A program made the position numbers and the translations under genes. Shown here in pieces: positions 48,463-64,000 of a stretch of 64,000 bases of DNA; within the stretch, counting starts at the first letter, position 1, and each line of letters begins with the position of its first letter. The notes under the pieces were generated by a model that saw only the letters and a program-made list of their open reading frames with translations, made no database searches and had not been told where the DNA came from. This DNA is from a bacterium (GTDB lineage: Bacteria; Bacteroidota; Bacteroidia; Flavobacteriales_D; Crocinitomicaceae), in contig JANSYQ010000013.1 of NCBI GenBank assembly GCA_024742305.1, forward strand, positions 1 through 64,000, written 5' to 3'.

Positions 48463-49470
48463 ATGCGTTTGAAGCTAATTGGATGTATTGTAACACTACT
48501 TATCTGCACTTTCTACGGAAGTGCTCAAGATATCCATTGGTCTCAATTTAACGACAATCCAATTTTTCAAAACCCAGCGAGCGCAGGGCATTTCCGAGGA
48601 GATGTGCGCTTTATTGGGAATTATCGCGATCAATGGCGCAGCGTTACCGTTCCATTTCAAACCCTAAATTTTTCAGTCGATGCGATGCCCTTGAATAAAC
48701 GCGACATTGGCTATGGACTCATGGTTTTTCACGATGTAGTAGGAGATGGAAATTTCCGAACGATTGAAATTCAAGGAAATATATCGAAGCAGTTCAAAAT
48801 AACACCTGACTCTATGCACACTGTTCGTGCGGGGCTAAATTTAGGTATGAACCATCGACAGCTCAACTTTGATAAGTTCTACTTCGATAATCAGTTCAAC
48901 GGGGTACAATTTTTTCCTTCCTTACCAACGGGCGAAGTACTGTTTTCGGACAGCCGAACGAATCTCAATATCGGGGCAGGACTTACGTACCAGTATTTCG
49001 ATAACGAACGCTTCAATTTCACCACCGGCTTTGGCTTTTTTAATATCAATCGCCCAAATCAAGGGTTCTATGGAGATGTCATTCGCCGTGATCTGCGATT
49101 CACTGCCTTCGGTAAAGGAATCTACGAGTTAAACTACGACTGGGACCTCATTCCGGGATTCCAAGTGTCCGTTCAAGGAAAATACCGCGAAATCATGATT
49201 GGTTCCTCGGCAAAATACACCTTAGTAAATCGCATGGGAGACTACAAAGCCTTGTATGCTGGACTATACTACCGAAATCGCGATGCCGCATTTTTGTCTA
49301 TGGGAATGGATTTTCAAGCTTGGTTCGTTGGCGTTAGCTACGATATCAACTTTTCTCAATTGGTTCCTGCAAGTAGAACACGTGGAGGGATTGAAATTGC
49401 AATCCGCTACATCATGAATCGTTTCAAACCGAAAAAAATCGTTCACCGAATATGTCCAGACTATATCTGA
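48463..49470 (+). CDS. PorP/SprF family T9SS outer-membrane protein
   Basis: 335 residues. After a signal peptide (MRLKLIGCIVTLLICTFYGSAQ), the start DIHWSQFNDNPIFQNPASAG is the hallmark of PorP/SprF proteins. The rest alternates beta-strands of an outer-membrane barrel (GYGLMVFHDVVGDGNFRT, FTTGFGFFNINRP). SprF-like proteins serve as partners for type B T9SS substrates and sit beside them in most genomes; here the upstream neighbour is a minus-strand membrane protein instead. The gene ends 19 bases inside the PorE-like gene, so the two are coupled. Confidence 0.93.
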   Translation: MRLKLIGCIVTLLICTFYGSAQDIHWSQFNDNPIFQNPASAGHFRGDVRFIGNYRDQWRSVTVPFQTLNFSVDAMPLNKRDIGYGLMVFHDVVGDGNFRTIEIQGNISKQFKITPDSMHTVRAGLNLGMNHRQLNFDKFYFDNQFNGVQFFPSLPTGEVLFSDSRTNLNIGAGLTYQYFDNERFNFTTGFGFFNINRPNQGFYGDVIRRDLRFTAFGKGIYELNYDWDLIPGFQVSVQGKYREIMIGSSAKYTLVNRMGDYKALYAGLYYRNRDAAFLSMGMDFQAWFVGVSYDINFSQLVPASRTRGGIEIAIRYIMNRFKPKKIVHRICPDYI

Positions 49471-51692
49471 TTTTACTTTTTTGCATTCTCAGCGGGACAT
49501 CATTCGGACAGGACCAACTGAAGAAGTATCTCGATTTCGCAAAAGAACAATACGACAAAGGCGATTATTATTACGCATTGGAGTATTACAAAAAAGCCAT
49601 GGAACTGGACTCTGCCACCGTAGATATTGTCTGGAACTTGGCAGAAACGTATCGCGCATACAAGGACTATCGAAAGGCAGAATATTACTACAAGAAGGTT
49701 TACGAGAAAGAATCCTCGCGAATCTACCCAAACAGTCTACTCTATGTTGGACTGATGCAAAAGCAAAATGGTAAATACGATGAAGCACTAGAAACTTTCA
49801 AGAAAGCCAAGAAAAAATACTACAAAGACAAGAAGAGCTATTGTTATCAAAAGGCAAAACAAGAAGTTTCGAGCACCGTTTGGGCACGCTCGGCCTTGAG
49901 AGATACAGCAGAACTTACTGTGGAACCATTGCCTCCCTCCGTAAATACCCCAAATTCCGAATTTGGGCACGGAATCTACGACTCTGTGCTCTACTTTTCC
50001 AGTCTTCGCGCCGATTCAATCAGTGAACGTGAAGAAGTTTATACTACTGGATATCATACGCTTTTGTATCAAAGTGAGATCAAAAACAATCAGTTCGAAG
50101 CCTCGACCAAAATTGAAGACTTGGTAAAAGAAGCCATGAATACTGGAAACGGAACCTTCAGTCTCGACGGTACTCGCTTTTATTTTAGTCGCTGTACAGA
50201 GAAAGGGTACAACTATCATTGCAAAATCATGGTGGCTCAGTACGCACGCGGACAATGGACGTACATTGATTCCTTGGGTGAAATTATCAACGAGCCTGGA
50301 TCCAACACAACGATGCCATGCATTGCCGATTTGGATGGAAACGAAACATTGATATTTGCTTCGGATCGAGAGGATTCTCAAGGGGGACTGGATCTATTCT
50401 ACAGTCAAATTAGAAACGGAAACCAATTCGGGAAAGTACGCGCATTGAAAACTCTAAATTCCATTGAAAACGACGTCACTCCTTGGTGGGATGCAGAAAA
50501 TCAACGTTTGTATTTCTCTTCCTCATGGGAAGATGGCTTCGGTGGATACGATGTTTTCTACTCACAATACAACGGCCGATTTGAAAAGCCTGTGAACGCG
50601 GGCTTGCCTGTTAATAGTCCAGCGAATGATTTGTACTATTTCCGAGAACTAGATACCGGCTACGTGACCACAAACCGTTTGGGCGTACAATACAGCAAAA
50701 ATCCTACGTGCTGTAGCGACATCTTCGCCTTGAAACCACCGGTGAAAATCATCCCTCCTACTCCGGAAGAAACCTTGGAAGACCTGATGAAACGTCTACC
50801 TGTTACCTTGTATTTCCACAACGATTGTCCGGATCCAAAGACGAGAAATGATTCAACGAAAGTCAATTACATCGATGGATACAACGAATACACAGCAATG
50901 TTGGACAAATACAAAAAAGAGTATTCGAACGGATTGTCCGGAGATAAGGCTGAGGAAGCTAAAGAGGATATCGAAAGTTTCTTTACTGAATACGTCGATC
51001 AGGGCGTAAAGGATTTAGAGGTTTTCCGTGATTTGTTGTTGAAAGAGCTGGATAAAGGAGCGAAAATCAATCTGACCGTTAAGGGATTTGCCAGTCCACT
51101 TGCTAAAACCGATTACAACGTTCACCTCACACGACGTCGAATTACATCGCTAGTGAACTACATGTACGAGTATAACGGAGGTGTTTTTGCAAAATACCTA
51201 GATGGAACCGCTGAAAATGGCGGCAAGGTTGTTTTCTCGTACGTACCCTTCGGTGAATACACCGCCGATCAGACCACCAGTGATAATCCAAATGACGTGC
51301 AAAAATCGGTCTATTCCCGAGCCGCAGCCAAAGAACGAAAGATTGAAATTCAAAGTGTTAGCTATCTAGAAGAAGATACCGTTTTTGCGCTCGTCACAGA
51401 CAATGCACTAATTGACGCAGGACCTCGAAAAAGAGGCGACGTAATCAAAGTGGAATACGAGGTAAAAAACGATTCTTCTGAGCCGATCACCATTAGCAAT
51501 GTTCGAATTCCATGTGAATGTACCTCGGCAGATATCGAAAAGAAAGAGTTGGCACCAGGAGAATCCACCAAGGTAACAATGGAGGTCGATACCAAAAATC
51601 TCATCGGGTTTGCAGTAAAATCCATCTATTTGCAAGTCGACGGTTACGACGAAGAACTGCGTTTATATATCTCCAGCGAGATTAGTGATTAA
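49452..51692 (+). CDS. PorE-like TPR/beta-propeller/OmpA protein with C-terminal DUF1573
   Basis: 746 residues. Signal peptide; TPR-like region (20-130, ALEYYKKAMELDSATVDIVWNLAETYRAY split over repeats); PD40-type propeller (about 165-430, TFSLDGTRFYFSRC, LIFASDREDSQGGLDLFYS, GGYDVFYSQYNG); a divergent OmpA-like peptidoglycan-binding domain (about 455-640, LYFHNDCPDP, VKGFASPLAKTDYNVHLTRRR); and a DUF1573/ASH-like beta domain (about 660-740, IPCECTSADIEKKELAPGES). PorE in Porphyromonas has TPR, propeller, CRD and OmpA. Here the added C-terminal DUF1573 replaces the internal CRD. It probably tethers the T9SS machinery to peptidoglycan. Confidence 0.85.
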   Translation: MSRLYLILLFCILSGTSFGQDQLKKYLDFAKEQYDKGDYYYALEYYKKAMELDSATVDIVWNLAETYRAYKDYRKAEYYYKKVYEKESSRIYPNSLLYVGLMQKQNGKYDEALETFKKAKKKYYKDKKSYCYQKAKQEVSSTVWARSALRDTAELTVEPLPPSVNTPNSEFGHGIYDSVLYFSSLRADSISEREEVYTTGYHTLLYQSEIKNNQFEASTKIEDLVKEAMNTGNGTFSLDGTRFYFSRCTEKGYNYHCKIMVAQYARGQWTYIDSLGEIINEPGSNTTMPCIADLDGNETLIFASDREDSQGGLDLFYSQIRNGNQFGKVRALKTLNSIENDVTPWWDAENQRLYFSSSWEDGFGGYDVFYSQYNGRFEKPVNAGLPVNSPANDLYYFRELDTGYVTTNRLGVQYSKNPTCCSDIFALKPPVKIIPPTPEETLEDLMKRLPVTLYFHNDCPDPKTRNDSTKVNYIDGYNEYTAMLDKYKKEYSNGLSGDKAEEAKEDIESFFTEYVDQGVKDLEVFRDLLLKELDKGAKINLTVKGFASPLAKTDYNVHLTRRRITSLVNYMYEYNGGVFAKYLDGTAENGGKVVFSYVPFGEYTADQTTSDNPNDVQKSVYSRAAAKERKIEIQSVSYLEEDTVFALVTDNALIDAGPRKRGDVIKVEYEVKNDSSEPITISNVRIPCECTSADIEKKELAPGESTKVTMEVDTKNLIGFAVKSIYLQVDGYDEELRLYISSEISD

Positions 51693-55160: not shown

Positions 55161-55550
55161 TTATGCAGTCCTAATTTTCTCTGCTATTACCTCCATTTTT
55201 TCCGCTGGAAGTTGGAGTTTAGGTTTAGAGAAATTCATATCATCCATGGTGTCAATAGGGATCAAATGGATGTGCGCATGAGGCACCTCCAGGCCTATGA
55301 CCGATACTCCGATCCGCTCGCAAGGAAATGCCGCTTTTATTTTTTTCGATACCTCTTTTGCAAAAAGCATCATCTCAGCAAGGCTTATATCCTCGATATC
55401 AAATAGGTAATCTACCTCTTTTTTGGGAATGACAAGCGTGTGTCCTTCCTTTAGCGGCATAATGTCTAAAAACGCGAGAAAATCGTCATTCTCAGCGATT
55501 TTATAGGCCGGTATCTCGCCTGATACTATTTTAGAAAAAATAGAAGCCAT
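55161..55550 (-). CDS. HIT family protein (Hint-type nucleotide hydrolase)
   Basis: 129 residues. The histidine triad HAHIHL (H91, H93, H95) and the opening SIFSKIVSGEIPAYKIAE are diagnostic. HIT proteins hydrolyse AMP-linked phosphoramidates or dinucleoside polyphosphates in the cytoplasm. The start codon overlaps the greA stop by one base, so the two form one operon. Confidence 0.95.
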   Translation of the reverse strand: MASIFSKIVSGEIPAYKIAENDDFLAFLDIMPLKEGHTLVIPKKEVDYLFDIEDISLAEMMLFAKEVSKKIKAAFPCERIGVSVIGLEVPHAHIHLIPIDTMDDMNFSKPKLQLPAEKMEVIAEKIRTA

Positions 55551-56023
55551 TAACGGGTAATTTCAACTATTTCAAACTTCATTACACCATTTGGCGTTTG
55601 AATGTCTGCAATTTCACCTACAGATTTACCAAGGAGACCCTTACCAATTGGCGATTCTACGCTAATTTTTTTGGCTTTGAGATCTGCCTCATTTTCCGCA
55701 ACCAATGTATACGACAGTTCCATTCCGTTATCTACATTCTTAATCTTAGCAGTGGAAAGGATGTACACTTTCGTATTATCAATGTCTGAATCGTCAATGA
55801 CTCTTGCATTGGAGATTACTTCTTTAAGCTTCGCGATTTTCGCCTCTAACAGACCTTGAGCTTCTTTGGCAGCATCGTACTCAGCGTTCTCCGAAAGATC
55901 TCCCTTATCGCGTGCTTCAGCAATCTGCTGAGAGATAGAAGGACGTTGAACAGTCTCCATTTCATGAAGCTCTTGCTTCAGCTTATTGAGTCCTTCTTGC
56001 GTGTAATATGATATTTGTGACAT
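55550..56023 (-). CDS. greA: transcription elongation factor GreA
   Basis: 157 residues, the standard length. The N-terminal coiled coil (EGLNKLKQELHEMETVQRPSI, ARDKGDLSENAEYDAAKEAQ) includes the acidic D/E tip that enters the RNA polymerase secondary channel, and the C-terminal FKBP-like domain (ISVESPIGKGLLGKSVGEIADI) is complete. It rescues backtracked elongation complexes by stimulating transcript cleavage. First gene of a two-gene unit with the HIT protein. Confidence 0.97.
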   Translation of the reverse strand: MSQISYYTQEGLNKLKQELHEMETVQRPSISQQIAEARDKGDLSENAEYDAAKEAQGLLEAKIAKLKEVISNARVIDDSDIDNTKVYILSTAKIKNVDNGMELSYTLVAENEADLKAKKISVESPIGKGLLGKSVGEIADIQTPNGVMKFEIVEITR

Positions 56024-56044
56024 AGCGTAATATTATACAAAAGA

Positions 56045-56066
56045 AGAGAGCCCCGCAGGACTCTCT
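56045..56066 (-). terminator. probable terminator after the PorV-like gene
   Basis: AGAGAG (56045-56050) pairs with CTCTCT (56061-56066), with partial GG/CC pairing inside. On the minus strand it is followed by UCUUUUG. It would end the receptor/1422-residue/PorV-like operon just before greA. Confidence 0.55.
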
Positions 56067-56093
56067 CGCTAATCAAATATAGTAAATTAAATC

Positions 56094-57161
56094 TTACTTC
56101 AGACTGATCGTTGCTCCAATAGTATGGATGATTCCGAATACTCCAGCAAAACGCGCAGCGTACTCGATTCCCAACGCATGTTGGTTCTCACCAACCAAGG
56201 CATCAACAGAAAATCCTGCTGTTGGACCAACTAGAGCATTTGAACGGTTTTCAACACTGAATAGGTTTTGCTCGTAAACAAACCCACCTCGAATATTGAA
56301 CGCCATCTTATCATTCGTCATTTGGTAGTCAGCACCAACTCGGTATTGATCTCTTGAGAATGAGTTAGCCGTGAACCCAAAGGCTGCTGTTAACTTGTTG
56401 TTCTCATCAAAGATGAAATCATACGAAGCACCAATTCCAAGCAATGCAGGCATTTCGTACGTTGCTGAACGTTGCTCCAAAGTAGCAACATTACCAGTAG
56501 ATACGTAATTAACCTGATTTGCCATACCATCACCACGGAAACGCATAACCGGACCAACATTCTTCAATGTAATTCCAAATTTGATCTGATCTTGCTCTCC
56601 TGTCACGTAACGAATTCCCGCGTCGATTGCAACACCGTTTGCACGCAAGTTGGCGATATTCTCAGAGATCACTTTAAAGTTGATTCCTCCATAAATGGAC
56701 TGAGAGAATGATCGCGCATATCCTACATTGAAGATGTTTGCACGTGGCGTGAAGAAACCGATGTCTCCTTCCGGGTTGTTAACTGTAGTAATTGGAATAT
56801 CTCCAAAGTTCATCGACTGAACACTTACTGCAATTACGTCTTGCTCTGAAATTCGCTGAGCGATACCCGCACTGTTAAATGCGATACCCGCGTTTCCAAG
56901 CCAGTTACTGTAATTGAACTTGATTTGAGTCTTCTTTGTAAAAGCAAGACCCGCAATGTTCGTAAATGTTCCTTCCAAACCATTCGTGTTCGCAATACCT
57001 ACATCCCCAAGGGCTGAGCTACGCGCCCACGGATTCACCAACATATGAGATGCTCCCGCAGATCCTACACGATCTTCGTTTCCGGCAGTTGCTGCGAAGC
57101 TGGAAAAAATCGCAGCTCCGACAACAAATGCATTCTTTATTTTATTCATTGAATTGTTCAT
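56094..57161 (-). CDS. PorV/PorQ family outer-membrane beta-barrel
   Basis: 355 residues. Signal peptide (cut near TAGN), then the family opening RVGSAGASHMLVNPWARSSALGDVGIANTNGLEGTFTNIAGLAF (family motif A...L.NP.ARS...G, later NIAGLA). The remainder is amphipathic strands of a FadL-like barrel (YGGINFKVISENIANLRANGVAIDAGIRY). PorV acts as a shuttle delivering T9SS cargo to the attachment complex; paralogues such as this, outside core T9SS loci, usually sit beside a specific cargo. Here it follows the 1422-residue protein by 22 bases. An alternative start is M5. Confidence 0.85.
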   Translation of the reverse strand: MNNSMNKIKNAFVVGAAIFSSFAATAGNEDRVGSAGASHMLVNPWARSSALGDVGIANTNGLEGTFTNIAGLAFTKKTQIKFNYSNWLGNAGIAFNSAGIAQRISEQDVIAVSVQSMNFGDIPITTVNNPEGDIGFFTPRANIFNVGYARSFSQSIYGGINFKVISENIANLRANGVAIDAGIRYVTGEQDQIKFGITLKNVGPVMRFRGDGMANQVNYVSTGNVATLEQRSATYEMPALLGIGASYDFIFDENNKLTAAFGFTANSFSRDQYRVGADYQMTNDKMAFNIRGGFVYEQNLFSVENRSNALVGPTAGFSVDALVGENQHALGIEYAARFAGVFGIIHTIGATISLK

Positions 57162-57183
57162 TTCAATCGTACTTTAAGTCTTA

Positions 57184-60100
57184 TTAAATACCCTGTAGGT
57201 CAATTAGTCTCATTCCTCCGAAGAACTTGATAACACGTTCTCCAACATCAGGAACATCCACATGAATTAGGTAAACACCTCCGGCTACCGGAATACCTTG
57301 CCAGTTGTTCAAGTCCCAGTCAACCGAAGTGATTGGACTATCCTTTCTGAAGGTACGAATCAGTTTACCGTTTACAGAGTAGATTTTCACTGTACAACGC
57401 TCTGGAAGGTTCGTGATTTTCACACGAGTATCCAATCGGTTGCGCTCGTACTCAGAGTACGCATAGTAAGGGTTCGGTACAACGTTGATCAAATCAAGCG
57501 CACTTGCCAAACGATCACGACTTCCAAGTTCTGTAGCAACACTTGACATGTTCCAAGAGTACATTGGTTGTCCGTTGTTCAATCCAGTTGCAGAGAAGTT
57601 TTTATACTCCTTGCTCACTCGCAAACTGATGGTAACATCTGTCGGCAAATCTTGCGGATTGATTGTATAGTTCGCAGCTGCTAATGGATAAGCAACCCAG
57701 CTAATACTGCTGTAGAAGTTACGCTTCGCAGTTGTGTTGTTCGCAAGAACATCCTGCATTAATAGAAGCGCTTCATTCGTAGCATCGTTATCTCCTTGTG
57801 CTGGAACGTATGCTGGGAAATCATACCCTAGCAAGTAGTTGTTGATGTCAGCAGTGTTGTTAGAGAATACATATACTGGGTGCATACCTCCCATGAGTGG
57901 GTTACCTCCGTTATCAACCAAAGTTGAAGTCGGGTTCCAAATCATGTCAGCTCCATTTTCAGAAGCAAGGAATGAATTCTCTCCGAACGCCATGTACAAG
58001 CGTGCCCCTGTTTCTAGGTCGATTGCATAACCTGGGAACCATCCCATTCCGGTTGAACCACTTTCAGGGTTTCCGTTTTTGTCCACTGAAGGACTTGCAC
58101 GCAAGGCTCCTGGCTGCGCTCCACCTACGTTAAGAGATGCTTCACGACCAAGTTCGATAATTGGAACTCGTGTCCATTTCGATTTGTCGCTTGTGATCAC
58201 AATATCAACGGATGGCAAGAAGCTAATGGAAGATCCATTTCTTGCTGATGTTGGTGATGCGTAGTTGTAGTATGCCATTGGCATGAAACTAGCCTCCCAT
58301 CCCGTCAACTTGTGAGGTGCAATACCTCCACCGAAGATTTGGTTCCAGTTCTTGTTTGGATCAGCGAAGTTGTTTGGTGCTTGCCAATCTGCATAGTTAC
58401 ATGGATCTAAGTAATCACGGTACGTTGGTTGTGTGTTATCTAGACACTCGTAACCAGGATCGTTTTGATCTGTATTTGGTGCGTAAGTTCCTGCGCGAAC
58501 CCAGTTAGTTGGGTAGAACGCATCGTTGTCAGAAACAGCTTCCAACCAACGAAGTGAACTATCTGCAAAAGTTATTGACGAACTAATCAATTCAGTAGAT
58601 CTCGCTTCTACACCTCCAGATGCTCCATCTGGCAAGAAGTAGTTCTCTTGATTGATTTGAACTGATACACCCCATTCAGGAATGATCTGTTCATTATTTG
58701 TACCAATGTTTACTTGAGAAACTACAGAGTCCGTTGGAGCTGTCGCAGTTTCACTGTCATATCGGTAAATTACCCATGATGCAGTATCTGCTCCGTTGCT
58801 TGTAGAAGTCGCATAGTCTCTGAAACGACACTCGTAGTAACCATCGCGTACATTCAATGGATCCACAACTTTTACATTGATTGGTCCTGCTCCGAAATCG
58901 TATTCCGGTGCTTCCATGAATCCGTTCTCAATGATTGTCTTCTTTGAAGCTTCTGTCAATTCAAGTGCACGACCTCCGTTTCCGTGTCCGTCCAAACGGC
59001 GGATGATTGGACTTGATCCATAACCGATCAATTGTCCTGTTCCATCTGCTTCTGGCATTGGATTGTGCGGAATTGCTGGAATTGGCGTAATAGCCGTTCC
59101 GTCGAAGTTCAAACGAGAGGCAATGTAAGGTGTTTGCTGCCCTGACAATGCATTCGGATCCGTTGGATCATACAAGTTTGGTGCACCTGTTTGAATGTCT
59201 GCCATATCGTTGTATGCATAAGCAATTGCGATATAGTAGTACGTTTTGTGATTCACCAAAGTACGATCTCCTTGCGCGAAGAAATCTTCGTTCAATAGGA
59301 ATGTGTGCTGAATTCCTTGGTTCGCTCCGTCCACTTTTTCAGTAGGGATAGAGAATCCGAGGTCTTCGTCAAAGTCGAAGTTGATGATTCGATCGATTCC
59401 GTTCTCAACATCACACTGAGCCACCAATCGTGCTTTTGAGTTATCACCGATATCGGCAACACCAGCATCTTCATCTATCATTTGATAGATTTGGTAACCT
59501 TCAAATCGGTATACATTGTCTACACCTGGGTCTGTAATGTTCACTTCGTCTGCTACTGCATACGTCTCGTTTGCATTATTAGAACCTCCTGGGTTATCCA
59601 ACATCAATACCAATTGATTTTCCAATTCTTGAATTGTGATACGCGGTGCGTTTGGTGGATCTAGGATACGGAAACATGCATCAAACAAAGCCTGTGCTTT
59701 CGTATCGGCACGCTTCAACGCTTCTACAGATGAGAATGGATCTCCATCCGAACCACGACCGTAAACAATACCTACAGTAATGTTGTTGATCGCTCCTGGA
59801 CGCAATGTAAACGGACCAGCTGATTGTACGAATCGACGATCCTCTGGTGGGTTTGGTGACCCTCCGTTCGCGTTGTATTCTGCCCAGTCATCGTTAATAA
59901 TAGCTCCTTCTGTTGCCCATCCAAGTGGATCGGAATCTCCTGGGAACACATAGGTTGTTGGTGTTGTAGTTACCCCAGCGTTGTAAGCGTTACCTCCGTA
60001 GAAGATTTGTGAACCATCTGCCCAGAATCCACGCATAAAGTTGTAGAATTCAGGTGCGTTGTTCGGGTCACTTGTTGGGAATACCGCTGCGTTCGTATAG

Positions 60101-61452
60101 TAAGTGAATAGACGCATACCATAACGCTCGTTATCAGGAATTCCATCGGAGTAACCTACTCCAATACCGCTATAAACGATACCGTCATTTGCTATTGCTT
60201 GAGACACCCACTGATCAGAAGGGAAATTAGCCGCTAATGAATCAGGTCCGATGTTATCGATTCCGTCAGCATCTTGGTAAGGTCCCTCAAAGAAGTCAAC
60301 TCCAATCGCTGGTGGGTTTTCACCATATCCTTGAGCTCCCCCATTTGTTTCGTCCAAGGCGTCACCGTTGTATGCGTAACCAAGTCCACGAGAAACGTCA
60401 CAACCTACGTAATCATCTTGGTAGTTTCCTACATCCGGATCAAGGTATTGAGCGAAGTACGTATCAAACAATGTTTGCGTACCACGGTTAATCATTTCAT
60501 AGTTGTAGAAAGTCATTCGGTTCACTTCATCGTTTGTAGCGAAAGCGAATGCTTGTGCACGGATTTCCATACCGATTGGCTCTCCGTTTGTTTCTGTGTG
60601 GATGTTTCCTTTGTCGTTAAATACCCACCAGTGAGTTTCATCTCCAAATAGTGTTACACGACGATCTGCACCACAGATTACGTCATCACGACCTAGGATA
60701 TCATCGTACCAAGGAATATCACCTTCTGCTGGGTTGTAAGCTCCAGTTTGACCGTAATCGTAGAACGGTGCCAACCAGTAATCTTGTCCTAAAGACACAT
60801 CACCATGTGCTGGCCAATCGTAAATACGAGTTAACTCATCATTTGTTGGAACTGTTGCCTCGGCACAAGCAATTGGATCCTGATTCGGTCCTTGACATGC
60901 TTCCCACCAAACTGTGTAGCGAATTACCTCTGCTTTACGAATTGTGTAGAATCTGTCGTAGAACAAACACTGATCGGGATCGATGTTCGCTTCACCGAAG
61001 TCACGTACTGCGTCATCTCCAACTGGACCTGAAGGATCGTAATCCCCGGAACCTGGTTGTGCAGTAAGTGGTCCAGGCCAAAAGTCGTTACCTTGACGGA
61101 ACGTTAGTGCGGCCAATTTCAACTGACCGTTTACGTCTGTTCCTCCCATCCAAAGTGCTCCTGCATAGATTGCGAAGAGGTTTTCTCCACCTACCTCGTA
61201 GGCAGCTACACTGTTCTGACGGTCCTGGAACATACTTCCACCTTGTTCAATAAAGGCGCTTACGTCGTTAAAACTCATCGTTATACTTGCTGTTGCGGGG
61301 GCACAATTGGCTCCCTTAGCGCTCGCAACGGTATTATTACCGCCACTACCGCCTCCAGCCGGCTTGCTACTGTAAGATTTGTAGGCAAGCGCATCGCTAG
61401 ACCACAGCAGGGTTGCTGCTCCAACGATTATTGCTACTAGTTGCTTTTTCAT
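57184..61452 (-). CDS. 1422-residue secreted protein of the TonB receptor/PorV operon
   Basis: Signal peptide (MKKQLVAIIVGAATLLWSSDALA) and a Ser/Gly-rich mature start. The long body is rich in Asp, Asn, Gly and aromatic residues, with repeated calcium-site-like DxDxDG-type words but no enzyme motif I recognise. The C-terminal 110 residues form a FlgD/T9SS-like module (LINVVPNPYYAYSEYERNR, VKIYSVNGKLIRTFRKD, NWQGIPVAGGVYLIHVDV) followed by an unusual extra end, KFFGGMRLIDLQGI. I recall this end in similarly placed Bacteroidota proteins. It lies 24 bases after the receptor gene and 22 before the PorV-like gene, so the three should be co-expressed. Confidence 0.8.
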   Translation of the reverse strand: MKKQLVAIIVGAATLLWSSDALAYKSYSSKPAGGGSGGNNTVASAKGANCAPATASITMSFNDVSAFIEQGGSMFQDRQNSVAAYEVGGENLFAIYAGALWMGGTDVNGQLKLAALTFRQGNDFWPGPLTAQPGSGDYDPSGPVGDDAVRDFGEANIDPDQCLFYDRFYTIRKAEVIRYTVWWEACQGPNQDPIACAEATVPTNDELTRIYDWPAHGDVSLGQDYWLAPFYDYGQTGAYNPAEGDIPWYDDILGRDDVICGADRRVTLFGDETHWWVFNDKGNIHTETNGEPIGMEIRAQAFAFATNDEVNRMTFYNYEMINRGTQTLFDTYFAQYLDPDVGNYQDDYVGCDVSRGLGYAYNGDALDETNGGAQGYGENPPAIGVDFFEGPYQDADGIDNIGPDSLAANFPSDQWVSQAIANDGIVYSGIGVGYSDGIPDNERYGMRLFTYYTNAAVFPTSDPNNAPEFYNFMRGFWADGSQIFYGGNAYNAGVTTTPTTYVFPGDSDPLGWATEGAIINDDWAEYNANGGSPNPPEDRRFVQSAGPFTLRPGAINNITVGIVYGRGSDGDPFSSVEALKRADTKAQALFDACFRILDPPNAPRITIQELENQLVLMLDNPGGSNNANETYAVADEVNITDPGVDNVYRFEGYQIYQMIDEDAGVADIGDNSKARLVAQCDVENGIDRIINFDFDEDLGFSIPTEKVDGANQGIQHTFLLNEDFFAQGDRTLVNHKTYYYIAIAYAYNDMADIQTGAPNLYDPTDPNALSGQQTPYIASRLNFDGTAITPIPAIPHNPMPEADGTGQLIGYGSSPIIRRLDGHGNGGRALELTEASKKTIIENGFMEAPEYDFGAGPINVKVVDPLNVRDGYYECRFRDYATSTSNGADTASWVIYRYDSETATAPTDSVVSQVNIGTNNEQIIPEWGVSVQINQENYFLPDGASGGVEARSTELISSSITFADSSLRWLEAVSDNDAFYPTNWVRAGTYAPNTDQNDPGYECLDNTQPTYRDYLDPCNYADWQAPNNFADPNKNWNQIFGGGIAPHKLTGWEASFMPMAYYNYASPTSARNGSSISFLPSVDIVITSDKSKWTRVPIIELGREASLNVGGAQPGALRASPSVDKNGNPESGSTGMGWFPGYAIDLETGARLYMAFGENSFLASENGADMIWNPTSTLVDNGGNPLMGGMHPVYVFSNNTADINNYLLGYDFPAYVPAQGDNDATNEALLLMQDVLANNTTAKRNFYSSISWVAYPLAAANYTINPQDLPTDVTISLRVSKEYKNFSATGLNNGQPMYSWNMSSVATELGSRDRLASALDLINVVPNPYYAYSEYERNRLDTRVKITNLPERCTVKIYSVNGKLIRTFRKDSPITSVDWDLNNWQGIPVAGGVYLIHVDVPDVGERVIKFFGGMRLIDLQGI

Positions 61453-61476
61453 AATGCTCTCTGTTCTTATTATGAA

Positions 61477-64000
61477 TTAAAAATCGAATTTAACCCCCAA
61501 ACGGATAGTTCGTGGTGAACTAATGTTGAAAGGATTTTGAACCTTCATTAAGTAGTAATCTCTGAACGCTTGTTCGTCCAATTGATTTTGGATTGATGTT
61601 TGGCTCGCTGCTGCAGCAAGGAATCCATCATCATCCCAGTTACCCGTTGCACGGTAAACATTCAACACGTTGAATTGGTTGAACAAGTTCGTAACACGGA
61701 AGTAAACATTTAAGAAAACTGCTTTTCTGTTATCCTCTTTACCCATTTCAAGTTCGAAAGTACGATCCAACTGTAGATCCAAACGGTAAGCCCATGGAAG
61801 GCGTGACCCGTTTGTTGTTCCGTCCAAACCTGAGTTTTGAGCGTTAAACTGAGCTGCGTTTGTAATTGTTCCCTGTGCTGAGTAAGGTGAACCTGAGTAG
61901 ATGTTAGAAACAATGTTCAATCCTGTGTTTCCAAACACTTCGAAGTCACCTACTAATGGACCGTTGTAATCACGACCTGTTCCGTAACGGTAATCGAATG
62001 TTACGTTGAACGCGTGACGACGATCGAATGAGTAAGGGAAGATCGCACGTAAGTTTGGCAATCCTGCTTGAATCAAACCAGCTGCAGAAGTTGCATCTGA
62101 TCCAGTTCCGTCCGCGAACTGCAATGTATAGTTAGCAGTCATTCGAACATTTCCTGTACGACGCAAGTCGTATGCTACTGTCAATCCTTTTACCGTACCG
62201 AAGTCACGGTTAGAGAATGTCGAATAAGTCGCTGGATATGCTTCGAAGATGTTCTGCAACTGAACGTTATCACGTTGCTCACGGTAGAACGCTGAGATCT
62301 TCAATGATGACGTACGTGTCAATACCTGCTGGAATCCAACTTCGTAATCAATTGTTCTTTCTGGACGCAATGCTGAGTTTGCGATAGTTGCACTACGATC
62401 ATTAATAAACTGGTATTCGAATGGATCGAAACGGAATCCTGAAGTAGGACGTTTTGTTAAGATATCGTAGTGTGCGAAGAATGATGCTTCATCTGAGATT
62501 GGGAATGAGAATGCGATACGAGGCATTACGTTCACCTGTGGAGTGTAATCTTCGAATGCATCTGCTGTTGGAGTTTCCAATGATGGATCCAACAACCATG
62601 GTGCAATTCCTCCTGGTCCGCGAAGTGTTTGTGGATCTTCCACTACAACACCATTTGCATCATACCAAATATCACCTGTTCTAAATCCGTTGATTTGCGT
62701 TGGGTTGTTTACGTCATTTACATATACTACGTAATCATCTCCAATTGACTCTGGAATATCAACCCATGGCTCACCTGTTGCTCTTGCTTCAGCTGCTGTG
62801 CGTGCTTCGTAGAACAAGTAACGGTCTTTCAACACTGGTTGGTTCGCATCGAAAACGTCAACACGTACCCCTACGTTGAATACGATGTCACGGAATGCAA
62901 ATTTATCCATGATGTATCCTGCCATGTAGATTGGTTGGAAAGCTCCAACAAAACGACGGTAGTTACCGTTTTCATCAAACTCTGTAAAGTACTTGTCAAT
63001 ATCTGTAACTCCACGTACTTTCTGACCTGTGTGATCAAATCCGTAGTAAGATACAAACGAGTTACCTTGGTTCAAAAGTTCATCCGGAGAGAACATATCC
63101 AAGCTAAAGATGTTTGGATCGTACTTATCTACGTCGATGAAGTCTGTTCCTTGAACACCTTCTGAAATCAACCCTTGCTCGAACAAGTACTGACGTAGGT
63201 TGTAATCAAAGAATGACTGGTTATCGTTATTAACTTGTCCTCCGTATTCGTCTGTATTATTAAGGTATGCATACCCTGTATTCAAACGCTCGTAGTTAAT
63301 GTATACACGACCAAGTGAATCAACCAATGTTGCTTGGTTCAAATCAAGTTCTGTGATGTGGAAGTTTGCCAACTGACGTGCAATCTGCCAAAGACCAACT
63401 GGTCCTTGTCCACCCCCACCGGTAGTAGTACCGTTTGTCCATCCACGGTCCCAACGACGTTCGAACTCGAATCCAACTGAGATTGAGTGATCACCGATGT
63501 TTGCCGATCCTGAACCTGTTACACGGAACTGATCGTTTTCAAATACTCCGAATCCGTTAAATGGTGCACCGATGTTGCTCCAAATGTTGTAAACGCTTCG
63601 TGGAGAGTCTCCATTCAACAAACCAGAACCTTGCTGAATTTGCAATAGGTTTTCGTAACGTCCTTCTGGAAGTCCGTCATAGATTTGGTAGTACTGAGCA
63701 GTAATAGCTGCCAATGCTGAGTTTGTTTCAGACGGCTCGAATTCTACTAATACATCTCTAAATCCATCGTGCTCATAGTTATTTGTATTCGGGTTCAACG
63801 AGTGAGAACGACGACGTGTAGTTGTGAATCGTCCTACGTGACCGTAGTTAAATAGGTTGTATCCGTGGTTTGGATCGTAGTTATCACGACGTACTTTCGA
63901 GAAGTCAACCATCAATGAGTAGTATGCACTCTTAATTTTAGAAGAGCTTTCTGGATCGTTGTTGTTGAAACGTTGAGTCAAACGTCCAAATACCCTCCAG
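61477..64000 (-). CDS. TonB-dependent receptor, C-terminal part (continues beyond window)
   Basis: The frame is open to the right-hand window edge, so the 5' part (signal peptide, carboxypeptidase-like domain, plug) is outside; about 840 residues of barrel are visible. Features are the long extracellular loops, repeated amphipathic strands (FNVTFDYRYGTGRDYNG, YEVGFQQVLTRTSSLKISAFYREQRDNV) and the typical terminal strand TIRLGVKFDF. A TTG near 63981 is internal, not a start. It should import a bulky ligand across the outer membrane with TonB energy, or act in export/assembly with the downstream genes. The ligand is not evident. Confidence 0.88.
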   Translation of the reverse strand, partial: WRVFGRLTQRFNNNDPESSSKIKSAYYSLMVDFSKVRRDNYDPNHGYNLFNYGHVGRFTTTRRRSHSLNPNTNNYEHDGFRDVLVEFEPSETNSALAAITAQYYQIYDGLPEGRYENLLQIQQGSGLLNGDSPRSVYNIWSNIGAPFNGFGVFENDQFRVTGSGSANIGDHSISVGFEFERRWDRGWTNGTTTGGGGQGPVGLWQIARQLANFHITELDLNQATLVDSLGRVYINYERLNTGYAYLNNTDEYGGQVNNDNQSFFDYNLRQYLFEQGLISEGVQGTDFIDVDKYDPNIFSLDMFSPDELLNQGNSFVSYYGFDHTGQKVRGVTDIDKYFTEFDENGNYRRFVGAFQPIYMAGYIMDKFAFRDIVFNVGVRVDVFDANQPVLKDRYLFYEARTAAEARATGEPWVDIPESIGDDYVVYVNDVNNPTQINGFRTGDIWYDANGVVVEDPQTLRGPGGIAPWLLDPSLETPTADAFEDYTPQVNVMPRIAFSFPISDEASFFAHYDILTKRPTSGFRFDPFEYQFINDRSATIANSALRPERTIDYEVGFQQVLTRTSSLKISAFYREQRDNVQLQNIFEAYPATYSTFSNRDFGTVKGLTVAYDLRRTGNVRMTANYTLQFADGTGSDATSAAGLIQAGLPNLRAIFPYSFDRRHAFNVTFDYRYGTGRDYNGPLVGDFEVFGNTGLNIVSNIYSGSPYSAQGTITNAAQFNAQNSGLDGTTNGSRLPWAYRLDLQLDRTFELEMGKEDNRKAVFLNVYFRVTNLFNQFNVLNVYRATGNWDDDGFLAAAASQTSIQNQLDEQAFRDYYLMKVQNPFNISSPRTIRLGVKFDF

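Follow-up and report, generated by a model that had tools for sequence, protein, structure and literature searches.

In a 64,000-nucleotide stretch of contig JANSYQ010000013.1 (assembly GCA_024742305.1) from a bacterium of the class Bacteroidia, family Crocinitomicaceae, hereafter the window, we examined three minus-strand open reading frames (ORFs) at the right end, which encode a TonB-type receptor, a 1422-amino-acid exported protein that we call the giant, and an outer-membrane barrel of the PorV/PorQ family. At most loci examined within and outside the class this triad keeps its gene order, the giant and the barrel tend to occur in the same genomes, and the giant ends in a C-terminal domain (CTD) like those of the type IX secretion system (T9SS), followed by a tail of nearly fixed length. 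Our preferred reading, to which we give a probability of roughly 0.55, is that the giant would be exported by the T9SS, lastingly docked on its own PorV-type barrel, and would work as the surface partner of the TonB receptor. A dedicated outer-membrane module had been proposed here by the first-pass annotation of the window; it is well supported by the conserved order, by the co-occurrence and by a CTD strongly matched in this genome only in its two giants. The members of the triad and the parts of the giant are as follows.

61477..64000, minus strand: TonB-dependent receptor, C-terminal 840 residues in the window (ORF, CarboxypepD_reg and Plug matches)
contig 61477-65271 (L090:478-4272), minus strand: whole receptor gene, 1264 amino acids, starting MLRKLNLIVV and running 1271 bases past the window edge
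57184..61452, minus strand: giant exported protein, 1422 amino acids (ORF, family alignment A1)
59662..61302, minus strand: giant residues ~51-597, predicted super-beta-sandwich (model, VIA and Foldseek)
59059..59661, minus strand: giant residues ~598-798, FN3-like sandwich, a weak assignment (VIA)
57520..59058, minus strand: giant residues ~799-1311, mostly confident model with no fold assigned
57226..57519, minus strand: giant residues ~1312-1409, T9SS CTD of the PorZ/PorU kind (Foldseek, VIA, NF052228)
57187..57225, minus strand: giant residues 1410-1422, fixed-length C-terminal tail past a conserved lysine (family counts)
56094..57161, minus strand: PorV/PorQ-family outer-membrane barrel, triad-specific subfamily, 355 amino acids (NF033709, PDB sequence match, A5 alignment)

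Between the three genes lie 24 bases (61453-61476) and 22 bases (57162-57183), and the ORF coordinates agree with the compact one-strand layout described at first pass. A scan of near loci, taking one genome per species, kept 80 loci of 152 relatives, labelled mostly Flavobacteriales, Crocinitomicaceae, Fluviicola and similar, with some odd names of metagenome-assembled genomes. The order receptor, giant, barrel was present in 43 of the 50 near loci having room on both sides, and where gaps were found, over all near loci, they ranged from -11 to 40 bases on the receptor side and from -20 to 42 bases on the barrel side. A distant sample of 40 hand-chosen, well-scoring stretches from 180 positive genomes (5 from another family of the class, 35 from other classes) gave 38 triads, one lone giant and one locus cut by a contig end; at 33 of the 35 other-class loci the receptor lies directly upstream of the giant, the remaining two being one lone and one cut. 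A further class sample of 34 loci, with one well-scoring match per genome and the receptor allowed within 1.5 kb, contained 27 triads and 7 lone giants, and the receptor was 1.1 kb away in one locus (L194). A set of 83 giant copies at 81 loci, including a second copy in the genome of the window, comprises 66 triads, 16 lone giants and 1 cut locus. Preservation of the order at most loci examined, in and outside the class, rules out a chance neighbourhood. At 28 of 32 class triad loci each, and at none of the 35 other-class loci, relatives of the adjacent greA and HIT-family genes lie no more than 6.5 kb from the giant; the triad outlives its surroundings, and the nearness of greA and HIT is old synteny with no evident functional link. 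We also noted that at one near locus (L050, CP034120.1, labelled Glaciecola amylolytica) the genes flanking the triad are syntenic with those of Crocinitomicaceae loci; the label is that of a gammaproteobacterium, so the record is probably mislabelled.

A broad profile (A4), built from giants of both near and distant loci, matched in 325 of 395 class genomes, representing 155 of 197 genera, at most two candidates being scored per genome; among the matches listed, the best mostly span nearly the whole model. An earlier, narrower profile had found it in 180 of 395 class genomes. In a draw from the whole phylum, counting weak matches as well, the giant was present in 154 of 296 genomes, from 102 of 140 genera. 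The triad-type barrel (profile A5, E ≤ 1e-60) was found in 304 of the 395 class genomes, and a cross-table made by hand from the two search listings gives 303 genomes with both giant and barrel, 1 with the barrel only, 22 with the giant only and 69 with neither (odds ratio 950, Fisher test, a value that ignores kinship and is descriptive only). The sole barrel-only genome is 69% complete, and of the 22 giant-only genomes, 4 match the giant only weakly (E 1e-11 to 1e-15) and another 12 have a completeness below 90%. No barrel better than E 1e-29 was detected in four genomes with weak giant matches only.

The last gene of the triad had been called a PorV/PorQ paralogue at first pass, and its product indeed scores 141.4 bits against the PorV/PorQ family model NF033709 (cut-off 90) and matches PorV by sequence in the PDB (6h3i_F, E 1.1e-7). 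We rejected its identification as canonical PorV, PorQ or PorV2, since it falls below the cut-off of each model (PorV NF033710, 80.6 bits, cut-off 250; PorQ NF033711, 77.8 bits, cut-off 220; PorV2 NF052325, 42.6 bits, cut-off 325) and each of the three has its own gene in the genome: PorV a separate gene on contig C44 with 397.5 bits, PorQ elsewhere with 239.6 bits on a fragment, and PorV2 elsewhere with 470.8 bits. The triad-type barrel is mostly single-copy in class genomes. PorV is reported to be a FadL homologue, and likewise BamG of the Bacteroidota beta-barrel assembly machinery (PMC12578637); a tie to that machinery was among the readings weighed for the barrel. As to the other family members of this genome, the PorU2 and PorV2 genes on contig C52 (L244:2179-8582; 684.6 and 470.8 bits) overlap by four bases, and PorQ is seemingly split across two contig ends (G000:C35:1-828 and the end of C47; L246, L247), the last stretch of C47 being GC-rich and foreign-looking by eye.

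The first-pass description of a T9SS-like but non-standard end on the giant is borne out by the type A cargo model TIGR04183, which gives 17.5 bits, below its cut-off of 23, and by the 13-residue tail that follows; on three other giants the same model gave 19.7 bits, 15.7 bits and no match at E ≤ 0.1. The PorZ model NF052228 scores 31.3 bits on residues 1320-1400 only, short of its whole-protein cut-off of 260, and the PorU model NF033707 scores 14 bits on the CTD stretch only, short of a cut-off of 420 that includes the peptidase. PorZ is the best CTD family also in two giants of other classes (L143, L152) and in another of the class (L137). With a predicted model as query, Foldseek placed PorZ 5m11 first (E 8.3e-6, 30% identity), VIA gave Z scores of 10.7 for PorZ (93 residues, 2.5 A) and 9.0 for PorU, and the model has the Ig-like sandwich typical of solved T9SS CTDs. 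The CTD of the giant is T9SS-like and nearest to the uncleaved domain of PorZ. PorU and PorZ, which are parts of the T9SS, are described as keeping their CTDs (PMC11285876), with PorU held by PorV and PorZ by PorQ (PMC5562754). Because the CTD resembles those of PorZ and PorU, and these are held by PorQ and PorV, a pairing of giant and barrel is indirectly supported; the first-pass annotation had cast the barrel as the giant's shuttle, which is probably wrong, a lasting anchor being the better fit. A profile of this CTD was strong in only two proteins of the genome, both giants (160.9 and 155.4 bits); a third match, at 27.7 bits, is PorU2, encoded beside PorV2. This genome has at least 150 ordinary type A cargo signals, and the CTD profile run over it matched no ordinary T9SS cargo.

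The end of the chain sets the giants apart. A lysine in the last strand of the CTD is invariant in the 37 rows of alignment A6, and the chain continues for 13 residues past it in 98 of the 100 giants besides the window's own and for 12 in one, L173 being tailless. Measured from the GxY motif, giant-type ends stop after 27-36 residues in 145 of 147 cases (the exceptions are L173 and one non-giant) and canonical ends after 18-22 residues in 42 of 43; the giant of the window ends 28 residues past GxY, unlike a type A end, which stops right after the last CTD strand. These counts come from 1627 ORFs of the sampled loci, in which near-copies are counted more than once, and the profile for canonical ends was built from five sequences that are themselves among the 43. 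The last residues of the giant have low confidence in the monomer model (mean 56), which would fit a part that orders on binding. For motif E, the end of ordinary CTDs, an influence on PorV binding has been reported (PMC10202324), and a fixed-length tail at this end suits a changed, cognate barrel.

The body of the giant is less easily placed. It begins, by eye, with a Sec-type signal peptide (MKKQLVAIIVGAATLLWSSDALA), and lengths among 101 giants range from 1008 to 1490 amino acids. Searches of the giant found no Pfam family at E ≤ 1 and no PDB relative by sequence at E ≤ 10, and comparison of the giants with Pfam and NCBIfam gave no enzyme, peptidase or propeller family match, in line with the first-pass remark that the protein belongs to no recognizable enzyme family. 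For residues 40-800 we obtained a model with a pLDDT of 72.7 and a pTM of 0.73, in which a predicted super-beta-sandwich (residues ~51-597) resembles the N-terminal domain of enzymes of the GH94/GH116/GH15 type (VIA Z 18.8 across 248 residues at 3.0 A; top Foldseek E 8e-4). Besides the super-sandwich, enzymes of the GH94/GH116 type have a catalytic (alpha/alpha)6 barrel; most of the matches align on the N-terminal part of these enzymes, which we take to be non-catalytic. A plain enzyme was therefore rejected as an identity for the giant, there being no enzyme family match and the super-sandwich match covering only this presumably non-catalytic part. The predicted fold gives a hint of glycan binding and no more than that, the model of that half being of middling confidence and a fold showing no function. 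Residues ~598-798 have VIA Z scores of ~7 to many FN3 domains, below the tool's reliable level. The model of residues 595-1422 is better (pLDDT 86.4, pTM 0.81); the structure comparisons list super-sandwich and FN3-like folds, and VIA matches to this second model hardly cover residues ~799-1311. In PorZ, beta-propellers precede the CTD. Three shorter proteins of the genome share the N-terminal region of the giant and carry ordinary type A CTDs above the cut-off; going by these sequences, a head related to that of the giant is also delivered by the general T9SS route.

L092:8159-9781: shorter N-terminal-region relative
L093:7511-9115: shorter N-terminal-region relative
L094:7771-9474: shorter N-terminal-region relative

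The receptor was correctly recognized at first pass as TonB-type: it matches CarboxypepD_reg with 53.8 bits (cut-off 32.3) and the TonB plug domain PF07715 with 36.2 bits (cut-off 23.9). Across 78 aligned receptors conservation is high in the plug motifs and at the end of the barrel, and we noted by eye both a TonB-box-like stretch, E-[VI]-V-V-x-Y-x-x-P-L-I, and a pre-plug stretch like E-V-V-V-x-Y-x-V-P-L-I-x-K-D, which some rows do not have. The receptor of the window had no match at E ≤ 0.1 to the SusC/RagA model TIGR04056 (cut-off 368.25 bits), and one distant receptor matched it with 84.1 bits over its N-terminal part only, below that cut-off.

Giants that stand apart from the triad bear on how the unit works. 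At first pass, the module had been set against the possibility that homologues of the giant occur widely without either neighbour. This is so in part, for the 16 lone copies, yet the 14 class genomes with a lone giant that we searched all have a triad-type barrel elsewhere (E 1.3e-133 or better). Six of the 16 are second copies picked on purpose, all six of them lone, and three (L091, L154, L205) have less than 650 bases downstream, so that for these only the absence of the receptor is shown and not that of the barrel. In the other-class genome G242, which has the lone giant L154, there were six PorV-family matches (best E 2.3e-43), found with a class-made profile that is uninformative on sharing there. 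The second giant of our own genome (G000:C14:29814-33887; L091:7725-11894) is 63% identical to the first and sits behind a gene that looks by eye like an M28-type peptidase, with no receptor upstream; the contig ends 165 bases behind it, and a tandem repeat, ATTGCCTA, runs from the 3' flank of the gene to the end of C14. In a tree of 101 giants made by a quick method, the lone copies are scattered, well-supported branches requiring 9 or more changes, and 35 of 36 rows from outside the class are triads, one of them with its receptor side cut off. Because the lone copies are scattered and the rows of other classes are nearly all triads, the triad looks ancestral and the lone copies look like repeated duplicates.

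The seven near loci that depart from the pattern (of the 50 with room) fall into two kinds. Three (L023, L059, L067) look like lone copies, and a barrel is present elsewhere in the genomes of L023 and L059. The other four (L033, L036, L037, L039) have receptor and giant and no barrel; their giants are triad-like in the 5' half and near a lone copy in the 3' half, the downstream flank is that of a lone-giant locus, and each genome has a single barrel gene on another contig. In two genomes, G730 and G732, the contig of the barrel breaks off within a giant whose end is of the triad type; next to the barrel gene of G731 and G734 we saw no piece of a giant. This suggests that the four loci are misjoined assemblies or exchanges between paralogues. 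Two loci with too little upstream room (L064, L066) are also without a barrel, and a triad-type barrel was found elsewhere in all seven genomes searched among those behind near loci that lack a complete triad. The simple reading, we infer, is that one barrel serves several giants; for type B cargo, an orphan that shares a barrel has been described (PMC12618676).

Taking these observations together, we propose that the giant would be made with a Sec signal, cross the outer membrane via the T9SS translocon through its CTD, and be collected by its own PorV-family barrel and not by the general PorV. The CTD would stay uncut and, with the 13-residue tail, remain bound to the barrel, much as PorV keeps PorU and PorQ keeps PorZ, which would make the barrel a permanent anchor. 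Most of the giant would then lie over or beside the TonB receptor as a surface subunit, in the place of a SusD-like lipoprotein lid and presumably in the service of import, and extra giants encoded elsewhere would use the same barrel. That the triad is a new class of TonB-dependent machine, with a T9SS-exported giant lid clamped by a PorV-family barrel through a CTD and its 13-residue docking tail, ancestral in Bacteroidota and retained by many of them, and with paralogous giants as exchangeable lids for a single receptor and a single anchor, is a tentative extension that we would sooner doubt than assert.

Several observations weigh against the docked-partner proposal. No giant was found at E ≤ 1e-10 in 70 of the 395 class genomes and 142 of the 296 genomes of the phylum draw; the unit is therefore not needed by the whole phylum. 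Six of the giant-only genomes are 91-100% complete and remain unexplained, and, as the lone giants make plain, not every copy requires a receptor linked to it. In the structure comparisons, the VIA score of PorU is tied with that of an unrelated Vpr peptidase domain (Z 8.8), and two long, low-probability Foldseek matches, an S-layer protein (probability 0.41) and Sas6 (0.08), rank after PorZ and before the CTDs of PorU, RemZ and NucA. One distant triad giant (L173:9589-12963) has an end like that of ordinary cargo. The recurrent greA and HIT neighbours give no hint of a substrate. We found no description of the triad unit and no experiment on it in open PMC papers, a body of literature that leaves preprints and most subscription papers outside.

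The main rival explanation assigns the unit to the T9SS itself, as one more module for sorting or attachment comparable to PorU:PorV with PorQ:PorZ or to PorU2:PorV2, in which the receptor would act as scaffold or sensor and not import anything, and the giant would handle other surface molecules such as lipopolysaccharide. The CTD and the barrel resemble exactly the parts of the attachment complex, the third protein matched by the CTD profile is PorU2, and a mostly single-copy barrel in a seemingly ancestral triad is what a housekeeping part would show. However, the giant lacks any match to a peptidase or propeller family, the receptor keeps the plug and TonB-box-like features of energised transporters, and 70 of the 395 class genomes gave no giant match; we consider this role unlikely. 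We think it more improbable still that the barrel simply serves as a FadL-type channel through which some hydrophobic compound passes, in an operon that is an ordinary uptake set, the giant being exported by the canonical PorV and the members having no need to touch. The homology of PorV to FadL (PMC12578637) and the presence of a canonical PorV in the genome would allow it, but the giant has a separate kind of CTD that no ordinary cargo of the genome matches, its tail is nearly fixed in length where canonical ends are shorter, and the presence of giant and barrel go together. Least probable of all, and very unlikely in our view, is that the giant serves as an adhesin or coats the cell surface and is linked to the receptor by shared regulation or old synteny only, an idea that suits a large protein of several predicted sandwiches repeatedly duplicated without a receptor, whereas the receptor is kept directly upstream across classes and greA and HIT stay near only within the class, for which reason the link of receptor and giant is tighter than old synteny.

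Set beside known systems, the docked-partner reading makes the triad an extension of a familiar arrangement. Like PorQ:PorZ and PorV:PorU, it combines a PorV/PorQ-family barrel with a T9SS-exported partner bearing a CTD of the PorZ/PorU type; those pairs retain the CTD, and their partner is held on the barrel (PMC5562754, PMC11285876). It differs from them in a partner of ~1000-1500 amino acids with no whole-protein match to PorZ or PorU, in a barrel below both equivalog cut-offs, and in the addition of the TonB receptor and the 13-residue tail. Because these family cut-offs are not reached, we do not file its members as PorV, PorQ, PorZ or PorU: the triad is a barrel-plus-CTD-partner arrangement extended by a TonB receptor. 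The pair PorU2:PorV2 (NF052324, NF052325, 'putative' in NCBIfam) likewise joins genes for a PorV-family barrel and a CTD protein, but PorU2 is sortase-like and its CTD is only weakly like that of the giant. For type B cargo, a cognate PorP/SprF barrel gene is reported to lie commonly directly downstream of the cargo gene (PMC12618676), and both this position and the sharing of a barrel by orphan cargo recall the triad; the CTD kind and the barrel family are different, and type B has no receptor. With SusCD and other lidded TonB receptors the triad shares a CarboxypepD_reg TonB receptor and a large surface partner encoded alongside, whereas its partner looks by eye T9SS-exported and not like a lipoprotein, and the receptor of the window has no SusC/RagA match.

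Current accounts route type A cargo as a whole to a single general PorV and reserve dedicated barrels for type B (PMC12618676). If our reading is true, a separate kind of CTD would have its own anchor of the PorV type, and the phylum's two great surface systems, export by the T9SS and TonB-dependent uptake, would be joined in one complex. No Pfam or NCBIfam model covers the whole giant despite its wide distribution in the class and the phylum draw, and the reading would offer a testable role for many Bacteroidota proteins now listed as hypothetical.

The surroundings of the triad in the window hold the following features, the two genes being conserved neighbours for which we claim no membership in the module.

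56044..56067, minus strand: terminator-like hairpin between the barrel gene and greA (hairpin scan)
55550..56023, minus strand: greA (Pfam)
55161..55550, minus strand: HIT-family gene (Pfam)

A probable terminator after the last gene had been noted at first pass. A hairpin is present there, but such hairpins are no commoner than in shuffled sequence: the scan found 3 terminator-like sites in 7 kb against 5.2 (standard deviation 2.2) in shuffles and is not above chance, so that only its position speaks for the candidate at 56067-56044. On the other side, a divergent gene lies 228 bases upstream of the receptor gene. About 4.4 kb from the triad, at 48463-51692 of the window, a PorP/SprF-family gene overlaps a PorE-like TPR gene by 19 bases, and the latter ends in a DUF1573 domain.

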